From NCBI GenBank assembly GCA_030418545.1, contig QAIB01000002.1:124001-188000 (forward strand): a DNA stretch of 64,000 nt. Reading direction: 5' to 3'. The stretch comes from Xenophilus aerolatus (GTDB lineage Bacteria > Pseudomonadota > Gammaproteobacteria > Burkholderiales > Burkholderiaceae_C). Shown one piece after another: positions 50,394 to 55,939 of this stretch (its first letter is position 1; each line of letters opens with the position of its first letter). Under the pieces are notes generated by a model. The model saw only the letters and a program-made list of their open reading frames with translations, was not told where the DNA came from and did no database searches. The position numbers and the translations under genes are program-made.

Positions 50394-51251
50394 ATGGACA
50401 AGGAAATCTCGGCCATCGTGCAGGTGTTGCGCGAGGAGGAGGGCGCAACCGTCGACGGCTGGCTGCGCGAGGTACAGGCCAGCCAGGGCACGGTGCACGC
50501 CAGCGCCAAGGCCGAGGCGGCCGCACTCGTCGCGGGCCTGCGCGAGGCCCTGGCCGGCGGGGCCGACCCCACATCGCTGCGCGGCGCGGGCTGGGACGGC
50601 GTGCGGGGCACGCTGGAGCAGCTGTCGGCCAGCCGCGCCGCGAAGGGCGATACGGCCGGCGCGACCAGCGTGTTCGTGCTGGCGTTGAAGAAGCCTCTGT
50701 TCGATCGGCTGCAGGCAGTCTTCGCGCAGGACCCGGCGTCGCTGGCGAACGCGCTGTGGGCGCTGACCACTCTGGTCGACCGCCTGGCCCAGCACACGGC
50801 CAACACCTTCCAGGCCTCGCGCGAGGAAGTCATCCGCCGCCAGCAGGAGGACCTGCTCGAGCTCTCCACCCCAGTGGTCAAGTTGTGGGACGGCGTGCTG
50901 GCCGTGCCGATGATCGGCACGCTCGACAGCAACCGCACGCAGGTGGTGATGGAGACCCTGCTGCAGAGCATCGTGGACACCGGCTCCGCGCTCGCCATCA
51001 TCGACATCACCGGCGTGCCCACTGTCGACACGCTCGTCGCCCAGCATCTGCTCAAGACGGTGGCGGCCATCCGGCTCATGGGTGCGGACTGCATCATCAG
51101 CGGCATCCGCCCGCAGATCGCGCAGACCATCGTGCACCTGGGCATCGACTTGCAGGGCATCATCACCAAGGCGACGCTGGCCGATGCCCTGGCGGCGGCC
51201 TTGCGGCACACGGGGTGGCGCGTGACGCGCGGCGAGGATGTCGGAGCCTGA
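50394..51251 (+). CDS. rsbR: RsbR-like stressosome sensor/scaffold (RsbRD_N + STAS)
   Basis: A 285-residue stressosome protein. The N-terminal all-helical sensing domain (about 1-150) resembles RsbRD_N (VLREEEGATVDGWLREVQ). A linker helix RQQEDLLELSTPVV leads to a STAS domain (about 155-275: IIDITGVPTVDTLVAQHLL). The two RsbT phosphorylation sites of Bacillus RsbRA align with S179 (GTLDSNR) and T213 (VDT), spaced by 34 as in RsbRA; the first is Ser instead of Thr. A GGAGGG ribosome-binding site precedes the ATG. It opens a six-gene operon with RsbS and RsbT, with which it should build the large signalling complex. Confidence 0.9.
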   Translation: MDKEISAIVQVLREEEGATVDGWLREVQASQGTVHASAKAEAAALVAGLREALAGGADPTSLRGAGWDGVRGTLEQLSASRAAKGDTAGATSVFVLALKKPLFDRLQAVFAQDPASLANALWALTTLVDRLAQHTANTFQASREEVIRRQQEDLLELSTPVVKLWDGVLAVPMIGTLDSNRTQVVMETLLQSIVDTGSALAIIDITGVPTVDTLVAQHLLKTVAAIRLMGADCIISGIRPQIAQTIVHLGIDLQGIITKATLADALAAALRHTGWRVTRGEDVGA

Positions 51252-51253
51252 GC

Positions 51254-51628
51254 ATGGAGCGCATCCCCATTCTGCGCATGGGCCAGACACTGCTGGTCAC
51301 CATCCAGGTCGACATGCAGGACCAGACCGCACGGGCGCTGCAGGAAGACCTGGCGGACAGGATCGCCAAGACCGGCGCGAGCGGCGTGCTGATCGACATT
51401 TCGGCGCTGGAGATCGTGGACTCCTTCGTCGGGCGGATGCTCAGTACTATCTCGGGCGTCGCACGCGTGCTTTCGGCCACCACGGTGGTGGTCGGCATGC
51501 AACCGGCAGTCGCCATCACGCTCGTGGAACTGGGCCTGTCGCTAGAAGGCGTGCGCACGGCGCTGAACGTCGAACGCGGGATGGCGCTGCTCGATCGCAT
51601 CCGGCAGGAGAGCGGCCTTGGCGCCTGA
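51254..51628 (+). CDS. rsbS: RsbS-like stressosome STAS protein
   Basis: A 124-residue single STAS domain. The conserved phosphoacceptor is S57 in EIVDSFVGRM, equivalent to Ser59 of Bacillus RsbS. Flanking segments (GVLIDISALEI, TTVVVGMQPAVAITLVELG) match the family. It lies 2 nt after rsbR and its end overlaps rsbT by 11 nt. In the known system RsbS with RsbR holds RsbT, which is freed after phosphorylation. Confidence 0.92.
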   Translation: MERIPILRMGQTLLVTIQVDMQDQTARALQEDLADRIAKTGASGVLIDISALEIVDSFVGRMLSTISGVARVLSATTVVVGMQPAVAITLVELGLSLEGVRTALNVERGMALLDRIRQESGLGA

Positions 51629-53934: not shown

Positions 53935-53938
53935 ATCC

Positions 53939-55939
53939 ATGGCGACGTCCGACGTCATCAACGCGACGATCGACCGGGGTGCTCACCGCATCCTGGTGGT
54001 CGACGATCACCCCACCACCCGCTATTCGACGGCGCGCACCTTGCGTGCGGCCGGCTTCGCCACGGAAGAGGCGGGCAGCGGCACCGAAGCCCTGCAGCGC
54101 GCGCCGCTGGGCATGTCGGCAGTGGTGTTGGACGTGCACCTGCCGGATCTCGACGGGTTCGACGTCTGCCGCGCGCTGCGCGCCGATGCGCGCACGGCCA
54201 GCCTGCCGGTCGTGCACCTGTCGGCGGCGCGGGTGCGCGACCATGACAAGGTGGCCGGCCTGAACGCCGGTGCCGACGCCTACCTGGTGCACCCGGTCGA
54301 GCCAGCGGTGCTCGTGGCCACGCTGCAGGCACTGATCCGCGCGCGCAGCGCCGAAGACCGTCTGCGCCAGAGCGAGAACCGCTTCAGAGCCATCTACAAC
54401 CAGGTGCCCAACGGCATGGCGCTGATCGACGCGCAGGGCTGTTTCGACGACGTGAACCCGGCGCTGGCCGTGCTGCTCGGGCGTACGCCCGACGCGCTCG
54501 TCGGCCAGCCGATCGAGGCGCTGGCCGCACCGGCCGCCATGGCAGCTGCACGCGCATTGATCGAGCAGGCCAAGCAGGGCGGGGCTGGCACCCCCGCTGT
54601 CTGGAGCGCAGAGTTTCCGCTGCTGCACGCAGACGGCCACGAGGTGCCGCTGGCCTGGAGCCTCTCGCCGCACGGGCCGTCCGGGTTGCAGGTGGCGGTC
54701 ATCACGGACATCCGCGCACGACTCGCGCTCGAGCATGCGCGCCAGGAAGTCCTGGAGCGGGAACAGGCTGCGCGTGCGCTGGCAGAGCGCCACAGCCGCA
54801 CCAAGGACGATTTCGTCGCCGTGCTGTCGCACGAGTTGCGCACGCCGCTCAACGCCATCAGCGGCTGGGTTCACATCCTTCAGAAACACGGTGCGAGACC
54901 GGAGATGGTTCGCAAGGCGCTCGACGCTATCGCGCGCAGCGTGGCGGCCCAGAGCCGAATCATCTCGGACATCCTCGACGTGTCGCGCGAGAACGCCGGC
55001 AAGCTGCGCCTGCACCGCGAGTGGGCGGATCCGGTCGCGCTGGCGCACGGCGCCGTCGACGGCCTGCGCGAGGACATCGTGGCCCGCTCGCTCCAGGTGA
55101 AGGTGATCGGCGATGCCGATGCGAGCCGCCCCGCGTGCCTGGACGCCACCCGTTTTCAGCAGGTGGTCTGGAATCTGGTCAGCAACGCCATCAAGTTCTC
55201 GCCTTCGAACGCCGGGATCGAGGTCACGCTCAGCCGTGAGGGCCCGATGCTCGTGCTCGCCGTGCAGGACCACGGCAAGGGCATCGGCGCCGACTTCCTG
55301 CCGTACCTGTTCGACCGCTTCACGCAGTCCGATGCGCCGGACAACCGGCACCATGGCGGGCTCGGCCTTGGGCTGGCGATCGTGAAGCGGCTGGTCGATC
55401 TGCACGGTGGGTCGGTGCAAGCCTTCAGTGCCGGGGAAGGGAAGGGGGCGTTGCTGGTGGCGCGCTTCGACGTGGAGCCGGACGACGCGGCCGATGGCGT
55501 CGGGGGCGAAGAGGGACGTGCGGTGGCCACGCCCGGCGCCGGAGCGACCACGCCCCTGGCCGGCCGCGATGTGCTGGCCGTCGAAGACAGCGCGGACGCG
55601 GCCGAGATGCTGGCCGTGGTGCTGCACGAGGCAGGGGCGCAGGTGCGCGTGGTGGGCGACTTCGACAGTGCAATGGCGGCCCTCGACGCACGCTGGCCCG
55701 ACCTGCTGGTCAGCGATGTCGGCTTGCCCGGCCGCGACGGCTACGAGGTGGTGCGCGAACTGCGGCGCCGCGAAGCCGCGGCGGGGCGCACGCCCATGCC
55801 CTGCGTCGCGCTCACCGCCTTCACCCGCGTGCAGGATCGCGACCGCGCGCTGGAGGCCGGCTTCGACGCCCATTTGGGCAAGCCGCTGGAGCCGCACGCG
55901 CTGCTGGCTCTGCTGAGGGACGTCCGCGCGCCACGCTGA
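53939..55939 (+). CDS. Hybrid kinase: REC-PAS-HisKA-HATPase-REC
   Basis: A 666-residue protein with receiver 1 (about 15-135; acceptor D65 in VVLDVHLPDLDG), a PAS domain (about 140-265), HisKA with H298 (FVAVLSHELRTPLNAISG), HATPase (NLVSNAIKFSP, HHGGLGLGLAIVKRL) and receiver 2 (about 545-660; D593 in LLVSDVGLPGRDGYE). No DNA-binding or enzymatic output domain is present. It may receive phosphate from the preceding kinase on receiver 1 and pass it along inside the protein, giving a short phosphorelay whose final output lies elsewhere. It is the last gene of the stressosome operon; a palindromic hairpin follows. Confidence 0.92.
   Translation: MATSDVINATIDRGAHRILVVDDHPTTRYSTARTLRAAGFATEEAGSGTEALQRAPLGMSAVVLDVHLPDLDGFDVCRALRADARTASLPVVHLSAARVRDHDKVAGLNAGADAYLVHPVEPAVLVATLQALIRARSAEDRLRQSENRFRAIYNQVPNGMALIDAQGCFDDVNPALAVLLGRTPDALVGQPIEALAAPAAMAAARALIEQAKQGGAGTPAVWSAEFPLLHADGHEVPLAWSLSPHGPSGLQVAVITDIRARLALEHARQEVLEREQAARALAERHSRTKDDFVAVLSHELRTPLNAISGWVHILQKHGARPEMVRKALDAIARSVAAQSRIISDILDVSRENAGKLRLHREWADPVALAHGAVDGLREDIVARSLQVKVIGDADASRPACLDATRFQQVVWNLVSNAIKFSPSNAGIEVTLSREGPMLVLAVQDHGKGIGADFLPYLFDRFTQSDAPDNRHHGGLGLGLAIVKRLVDLHGGSVQAFSAGEGKGALLVARFDVEPDDAADGVGGEEGRAVATPGAGATTPLAGRDVLAVEDSADAAEMLAVVLHEAGAQVRVVGDFDSAMAALDARWPDLLVSDVGLPGRDGYEVVRELRRREAAAGRTPMPCVALTAFTRVQDRDRALEAGFDAHLGKPLEPHALLALLRDVRAPR

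Follow-up and report, generated by a model that had tools for sequence, protein, structure and literature searches.

A six-gene stressosome operon of Xenophilus aerolatus with a histidine kinase pair as its candidate output

Described stressosomes and the operon of the window

The stressosomes of Bacillus subtilis and Listeria combine RsbR, RsbS and RsbT with conserved phosphosites and are reset by the phosphatase RsbX, and their output runs through RsbU, RsbV, RsbW and SigB. The operon described here lies in a stretch of 64,000 nucleotides from Xenophilus aerolatus (contig QAIB01000002.1 of assembly GCA_030418545.1, positions 124,001 to 188,000), which as a whole is referred to as the window. 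Its six genes (positions 50394-55939, + strand) encode the same three proteins with the conserved phosphosites and a protein with an RsbX-like phosphatase fold. In contrast to the Bacillus and Listeria systems, the RsbU-RsbV-RsbW-SigB output was not found in the genome of the window, the RsbX half bears an extra ATPase domain, and a pair of kinases follows. From the sequence comparisons given below we read the locus, with moderate confidence, as an operon of conserved type in which released RsbT, or less likely the ATPase half of the fusion protein, would act on the linker of a soluble histidine kinase (HK) and through it on the first receiver domain (REC1) of the last protein.

A stressosome module beside two-component genes is known from Vibrio vulnificus, where RSTX is accompanied by D1/D2, SigB is missing and no RsbU_N domain was detected in the kinase; D1/D2 are thought to act on cyclic di-GMP (available parts of PMC9237108 and PMC10014275). 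The Vibrio RsbR is globin-coupled and the RsbX has a single domain, whereas the RsbR of the window is of the RsbRD_N type, without a protoglobin domain, and its RsbX is fused. Stressosomes beside or wired to histidine kinases are already in print in the same two papers, and the headline of a preliminary description of the window is thus known in kind. What the present operon adds is a conserved six-gene form, a linker signature and natural RsbT-kinase fusions, together a testable variant. Modules with an RsbU_N kinase (Heinz 2022, PMC9237108, as far as available; loci L137-L140 of our collection) share RST, RsbX and a kinase with the window and occur in the same bacterial family; they differ in that their kinase matches RsbU_N and their second ATPase is a separate gene. 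In Moorella thermoacetica the output of RsbT likewise lies outside the SigB pathway, in a GGDEF cyclase with the N-terminal domain of RsbU (Quin 2012, as cited in the available part of PMC12143880).

The features of the operon, all on the + strand, are as follows.

50394-51251, +: rsbR; sensor domain of the RsbRD_N type, joined by a long linker helix to a STAS domain (Pfam, phmmer, AlphaFold2 (AF2), Foldseek)
50928-50930, +: RsbR phosphosite S179 (alignment with Listeria RsbR)
51030-51032, +: RsbR phosphosite T213 (alignment with Listeria RsbR)
51254-51628, +: rsbS; single STAS domain (Pfam; phmmer to B. subtilis RsbS)
51422-51424, +: RsbS phosphosite S57 (alignment with B. subtilis RsbS)
51618-52022, +: rsbT; HATPase switch kinase with TTG start and 11-bp overlap with rsbS (Pfam HATPase_c/HATPase_c_2)
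52013-53047, +: fusion gene; RsbT/SpoIIAB-like ATPase plus RsbX-like PP2C (Pfam HATPase_c_2 and SpoIIE)
about 52070-52402, +: ATPase half of the fusion, RsbT/SpoIIAB-like (Pfam HATPase_c_2)
about 52544-53029, +: PP2C half of the fusion, RsbX-like (Pfam SpoIIE)
53044-53934, +: soluble HK; helical linker, HisKA and HATPase_c (Pfam)
53107-53241, +: linker with the signature core LEETNRGVVALYAELD (HK residues 22-66), where RsbT or a paralogue is proposed to dock
53245-53247, +: H-box histidine H68 of the HK (Pfam HisKA)
53939-55939, +: hybrid kinase; REC-PAS-HisKA+HATPase_c-REC (Pfam, Response_reg twice)
about 53984-54328, +: REC1 of the hybrid (Pfam Response_reg)
54131-54133, +: D65 of REC1, predicted phospho-acceptor (D65 in 72/72)
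about 55571-55915, +: second receiver (REC2) of the hybrid (Pfam Response_reg)

All six genes of the preliminary description were recovered where it had placed them, each overlapping or abutting its neighbour (junctions of +2, -11, -10, -4 and +4 nt), and the 11-bp overlap of rsbS and rsbT is the same in many relatives. A scan of positions 50100-56100 returned one weak sigma-70-like promoter, within rsbR, and no terminator-like site; cotranscription of the six genes is therefore proposed from the gene overlaps only.

RsbR aligns without gaps to Listeria RsbR 7b0u (phmmer, E 5e-31; Vibrio RsbR was also matched), and its AF2 model (predicted local distance difference test score, pLDDT, 92.6) has the same Listeria stressosome structure as top Foldseek match. 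S179 and T213 fall on Thr175 and Thr209 of the 7b0u chain and are invariant in 46/46 aligned RsbR proteins (the window and 45 of 76 relatives). The protein thus has the stressosome arrangement of an N-terminal sensor and a STAS domain with two phosphosites 34 residues apart. A heme-binding globin sensor was considered for RsbR and rejected: Pfam gave no Protoglobin match, and no histidine stands among the invariant or near-invariant N-terminal columns. RsbS, a single STAS domain with a phospho-serine site, matches B. subtilis RsbS 6jhk (phmmer, E 1.6e-30) with S57 on the serine of the DSF motif, and this position is serine in 81/81 sequences (80 loci and the window). The three phosphosites and their spacing, as first proposed, are thus borne out by the alignments with 7b0u and 6jhk. 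RsbT found only weak SpoIIAB matches in the PDB (E 0.004); it is named here because the HATPase motifs E47, N51, D80, G82 and G84 are kept in 79/79 sequences (relatives and window) and because its gene adjoins and follows rsbS, as is expected of a GHKL-type stressosome kinase with intact ATP motifs, and it falls in the RsbT group of the ATPase-domain tree presented below. The fusion protein (AF2 model, pLDDT 93.6) is matched by Foldseek to RsbX 3zt9 (TMt 0.90) and RsbX 3w40, and in its other half to SpoIIAB 1til. It has the PP2C fold of RsbX with the metal-binding aspartates D170, D187 and D332, yet it departs from the single-domain form of RsbX by its N-terminal HATPase_c_2 domain. The motifs of both halves (E50, N54, D81 and G85; D170, D187, G188 and D332) are kept in 44/44 aligned proteins, namely the window and 43 of 71 relatives. 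The extra ATPase half is probably a second regulator, either kinase-like or partner-binding.

Gene order and the kinase linker among relatives

The comparison used the best 80 of 526 relatives by RsbS match in a contig search. The order RsbS-RsbT-fusion-HK-last protein was found in 71 of these best 80, with rsbR in front in 70 of the 71 and off the contig in the remaining one (L088). Eight of the other nine loci stop at a contig end (L078, L081, L093, L094, L099, L103, L106 and L114), and the order is kept in 71 of the 72 loci with contig left downstream. The exception, L083 from a Rubrivivax metagenome-assembled genome (MAG), has rsbR-S-T-fusion without the kinase pair despite room downstream; the same MAG holds a complete copy on another contig (L077). 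By phylum the ordered loci belong to Pseudomonadota (54), Actinomycetota (9), Cyanobacteriota (5) and Gemmatimonadota (3), and they include Acidovorax, Variovorax, Cupriavidus, Xanthomonas, Stenotrophomonas and Pseudomonas as well as Micromonospora, Nocardioides, Nostoc, Calothrix and Asticcacaulis. Further copies are present on Deinococcus radiodurans plasmid MP1 and in Sphingomonas, Xanthomonas and Nonomuraea records; next to the copy of Sphingomonas no sixth gene is annotated. The neighbourhood comparison suggested in the preliminary description thus gave a recurring order, and the view of the module as a betaproteobacterial peculiarity has to be given up. Because the order is kept across four phyla, the rsbRST-X half and the kinase pair would appear to be linked strongly enough to stay together over that distance.

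The HK, collected as 73 proteins by whole-protein BLAST and not by its linker, has a complete kinase core (H68 and E69 in 73/73; N183, N187, D215 and G217 in 72/73). Between its N-terminus and this core lies the linker, whose motif T-N-x-G-V-x-A-L-Y-x-E-L was found in 72 of the 73 HKs, with a variant in the remaining one (L119); E30, T34, N35, G37, V38, A40 and L41 are invariant (73/73). Aligned on the motif, the linker is at least as conserved as the catalytic domains, the mean frequency of the top residue being 0.76 compared with 0.72 for HisKA and 0.71 for HATPase. In all 70 measurable HKs the last motif copy stands 33 residues ahead of the H-box; if the first copy is taken instead, the spacing is 33 in 67 HKs and 51 in two. 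The latter reflects the kinases of L107 and L125 (Nocardioides), in which an apparent second TN-G-ALY copy stands 18 residues upstream (51 versus 33).

The linker also follows the stressosome through genomes. A query of 45 amino acids had a single match in the genome of the window, which has 30 HATPase_c_2 matches, and it matched 38 of 399 genomes of the same family, all 38 of them RsbS-positive. RsbS itself was found in 53 of the 399, and the linker accordingly in 38 of 53 RsbS-positive and 0 of 346 RsbS-negative genomes (Fisher 3e-41, not corrected for relatedness).

A guide to the possible partner of the linker comes from kinases in which a paralogue of RsbT is fused ahead of it, found in Gemmatimonadota, Cyanobacteria, Alphaproteobacteria, Deinococcus and some Gammaproteobacteria. 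The N-terminal regions of 18 HKs matched a hidden Markov model (HMM) of RsbT at 30-124 bits: eight of them (two Gemmatimonadota, five Cyanobacteria and L117) reached 100-124 bits, and the other ten, those of nine actinobacteria and of L102, reached 30-39 bits. RsbT-fused kinases are also encoded on Deinococcus (108 bits) and Sphingomonas (122 bits) plasmids. An unrooted tree of the ATPase domains comprised three groups, namely RsbT (approximate likelihood ratio test, SH-aLRT, 87), the fusion (99) and the kinase-fused domains (93), the last including those of L098, L114 and L119. With outside modules added and the actinobacterial domains left out, nine kinase-fused domains grouped on the RsbT side (SH-aLRT 81). 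The ATPase of the fusion protein was nearest to the second-ATPase gene of L140 (SH-aLRT 89); its joining to the second ATPases of L136, L137 and L139 was weak (46), and that of L138 fell on the RsbT side. No paper on the six-gene form, the linker signature or an RsbT-kinase fusion was met among the literature matches listed, judged by titles and the beginnings of abstracts, although Pane-Farre 2005 and a 2017 review may describe parts, and the linker string ALYAEL retrieved only papers unrelated by title.

The route of the signal and its alternatives

We assume that RsbR and RsbS form the core that holds RsbT, and that upon stress RsbT would phosphorylate S57 of RsbS and S179/T213 of RsbR and then leave, as in the known families; the PP2C half of the fusion would, by the same comparison, be the RsbX-type phosphatase that resets the core. 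Freed RsbT would then bind the helical linker of the HK and alter how the kinase dimer is held. The model for this step is the action of RsbT on RsbU, which is activated by binding and ordering of a coiled-coil linker, a design that the authors suggested to be shared by histidine kinases (available part of PMC12143880). The main, less likely, alternative partner for the linker would be the ATPase half of the fusion. The HK is predicted to pass its phosphate to D65 of REC1, and the hybrid would act as an exchangeable output protein that here drives a response regulator encoded elsewhere. Of the preliminary description, the complete R/S/T/X set followed by a kinase pair is borne out, and no SigB branch was found; its proposal that RsbT or the fusion may signal into the kinase pair is made more specific by the RsbT-kinase fusions.

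The last protein starts with a receiver in 72/72 cases (71 loci and the window) and otherwise occurs in different forms: 59 are REC-HK-REC, nine REC-PP2C, one REC-HK and three REC only, of which two lie at contig ends and one is interrupted (L127). All nine REC-PP2C proteins are those of the nine actinobacteria, and Pfam finds REC and SpoIIE in 9/9. That the last protein has no output domain, as first described, is true of the window, but its second half is exchangeable in relatives, being either HK-REC or PP2C. A comparable pair is RsfS/RsfR of Mycobacterium, in which the protein phosphorylated by a kinase combines REC and PP2C, as the actinobacterial last protein does; unlike here, no RST module is described beside it in the available part of PMC10950880. 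In REC1, D23 is invariant as well (72/72) and position 95 is S in 65 and T in 7. Split reading frames were noticed in two loci, two or more frames making up the HK of L062 (Aquabacterium MAG) and the last protein of L127 (Pseudomonas sp. TH10); either decay or sequencing error accounts for them.

In the window the preliminary description had seen neither RsbU nor an anti-anti-sigma or sigma factor, and for the SigB branch domain-profile searches of the whole genome (5.84 Mb) led to the same result. RsbU_N was absent from the genome in a search that was positive in the B. subtilis control, and five matches to the SigBFG model, none above cut-off, are presumably other sigma factors. STAS domains gave four matches: RsbR, RsbS, a 611-amino-acid frame that, by its length, may be SulP-like, and a 101-amino-acid gene beside an MlaC-like gene in an mla-type neighbourhood, which we take to be MlaB-like. 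Of the 30 HATPase_c_2 matches two lie in the operon; the other 28 are in frames of 401-1293 amino acids, which, judged by frame length only, are too long for RsbW. Outside the operon the SpoIIE model matched four PP2C proteins (read by eye), one of them joined to a protein-kinase-like domain. A SigB branch hidden elsewhere was thus rejected, with RsbU, RsbV, RsbW and a SigB-group factor all missing from the profile searches. Docking of the RsbU_N type was rejected likewise, Pfam finding no RsbU_N on the HK or the hybrid and none in the whole genome. That the output lies elsewhere in the genome, as had been proposed, is likely; a phosphorelay from REC2 via a histidine phosphotransfer protein is doubtful, because the three Pfam Hpt matches of the genome are all in one 2037-amino-acid frame, although divergent Hpt domains could escape the profile.

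Among the alternatives to linker binding, the one that survives best, though we regard it as unlikely, is that RsbT or the ATPase half of the fusion touches the HK only briefly and signals by phosphorylating it on Ser/Thr. For modules that lack RsbU_N, Heinz et al. suggested phosphorylation by RsbT (available part of PMC9237108), and both the invariance of Thr34 in the linker (73/73) and the intact motifs of the two ATPase domains would suit it. However, the kinase-fused RsbT domains of Micromonospora, Asanoa and Nocardioides have apparently lost the ATP-site motifs while the linker is kept, and a structural role is therefore favoured; RsbT also acts on RsbU through binding (PMC12143880, as far as available).

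Somewhat less probable still is that the fusion and not RsbT is the partner of the HK, its ATPase half switching between a STAS protein and the HK and its PP2C half resetting the core. The fusion gene does lie between rsbT and the HK gene and overlaps the start of the latter, its ATPase motifs are invariant in the aligned set, and L136, L137, L139 and L140 have a separate second ATPase gene beside a single RsbX. Yet the kinase-fused domain scores higher with the RsbT HMM than with an HMM of the fusion (for example 124 versus 59 bits in L105) and groups with RsbT in the expanded tree, and the RsbX of Bacillus and Vibrio works without an ATPase half.

The two remaining explanations are very improbable. 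The kinases might stand upstream, the HK or hybrid sensing a cue by way of PAS and modulating the stressosome; the hybrid does have a PAS domain and a receiver able to take input, but the PP2C end of the actinobacterial last protein suits output rather than input, and Vibrio mutants without RSTX or without the downstream kinase are similar in phenotype (available part of PMC10014275). Mere co-location of a co-expressed but uncoupled kinase pair, for the module type of which the literature examined held no interaction or phenotype data, is the least probable of all, given the order kept over four phyla without a recurring seventh gene, the natural RsbT-kinase fusions and the restriction of the linker to rsbS-positive genomes of the family.

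Several points weigh against binding of the linker by free RsbT. The conserved linker may serve purposes inside the kinase itself, and the sample of 80 loci leans to this module type. By eye, the kinase-fused RsbT domain looks degenerate in the actinobacteria and L102 (30-39 bits), and the N-terminal domain of the Nonomuraea kinase reaches 13 bits. In L134 and L135, from the family of the window, the kinase is fused to an RsbT domain but has another linker; RsbT fusion and this linker are therefore not always together. (Instead of a hybrid kinase gene, two genes for single-domain receivers follow these two kinases.) The three-group ATPase tree, with SH-aLRT of 87-99, has no root. A tree of the HK cores separates 52 short from 20 long-headed kinases by one change (support 99), but it was made by a quick method with a long-branch warning, counts as fused whatever has over 140 residues ahead of the linker, omits L119 and does not include the fused kinases L134 and L135. 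Most simply this change would be one loss of the RsbT domain in the lineage of the window; even so, a domain lost in cis need not have been replaced by free RsbT. A canonical receiver has an Asp acceptor, an acidic pocket, a Ser/Thr and a conserved Lys, which normally couples phosphorylation to switching. REC1 departs from this form in that the Lys is absent: at position 118 (n=72; His118 in the window) there are H in 51, E in 7, Q in 7, R in 2, T in 2, D in 2 and a gap in 1, and Lys in 0. Heinz et al. report that RsbT and kinase D1 of Vibrio, which belong to a different module type, gave no positive interaction (available part of PMC9237108). The missing Lys and this failed interaction tell against a simple version of the proposal.

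Other modules, transfer and meaning for the family

The same family contains other module types. Of 15 RsbS-positive genomes without the linker, 13 were examined. Contig ends truncate both loci of G376. In G016 and G105 the kinase is fused to an RsbT domain, its linker is a different one, and two receiver genes come after it. Separate genes for a second ATPase and for RsbX stand ahead of the kinase in G058, G170, G317 and G057, and in G271 a single frame holds RsbX and the kinase, the second ATPase following. Four of the kinases of these last five genomes match RsbU_N, two of them above the Pfam cut-off. By locus, L136, L137, L139 and L140 read rsbR-rsbS-rsbT, separate second ATPase, single RsbX and kinase, and in L138 RsbX and the RsbU_N kinase share one frame with the second ATPase following; The RsbU_N match passes the cut-off in L138 and L140 but not in L137 and L139, and L136 has none. 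In G012, G013, G039, G228 and G366 a large hybrid kinase accompanies what reads as a single RsbX or as ATPase-RsbX. The five large-hybrid loci tested (L141-L143 from these genomes, and L144 and L145, which are second modules of linker-positive genomes) have an RsbR of Protoglobin type, and the linker motif was not seen in them. The kinases of L141 and L143 carry Hpt, and in L141, L144 and L145 RsbT-like and RsbX-like domains stand in one reading frame, with provisional start codons and gene limits.

Among the loci of the relatives no further neighbour keeps a constant position beside the six genes. A seventh, conserved output gene was considered and rejected: five flank families recur in at least 6 loci and 3 genera, none on a fixed side, the largest occurring in 16 loci, downstream in 10 and upstream in 6 and on either strand, with a sample member that is PAS/LOV-like by eye. 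In the window the operon is flanked upstream (48170-50170) by what we take, by its look, to be a glycosidase-type protein and downstream (56043-56825) by a presumably TerC-like membrane protein.

The operon type is also carried by plasmids (L129, Xanthomonas vasicola pXVH29; L128, Deinococcus radiodurans MP1; L131, Sphingomonas aliaeris), and in the genus of the window RsbS was found in three of six genomes (G000, the genome of the window, G071 and G255) and not in G177, G320 and G378. Plasmid copies and patchy presence in the genus suggest gain by transfer or frequent loss.

As a tentative generalisation, which we hold with less confidence than the reading of the operon itself, there may be a widespread class of stressosomes in which an RsbT-family ATPase serves as an allosteric subunit of a histidine kinase. 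In several phyla an RsbT paralogue is part of the kinase itself; in the beta- and gammaproteobacterial lineage of the window it would have been lost once and replaced by free RsbT on the same linker, feeding a lysine-less receiver with kinase or PP2C output. If this is true, one serine-kinase switch would have two possible destinations, a His-Asp relay and a partner-switching phosphatase. A route from the stressosome to a kinase without RsbU_N is given as a suggestion in the available part of the Vibrio work (PMC9237108). The operon type offers a concrete candidate contact, a signature of 16 residues in a single small soluble kinase, for which the natural fusions are a guide; should the proposal hold, Ser/Thr partner switching would be tied to two-component signalling by a defined mechanism.

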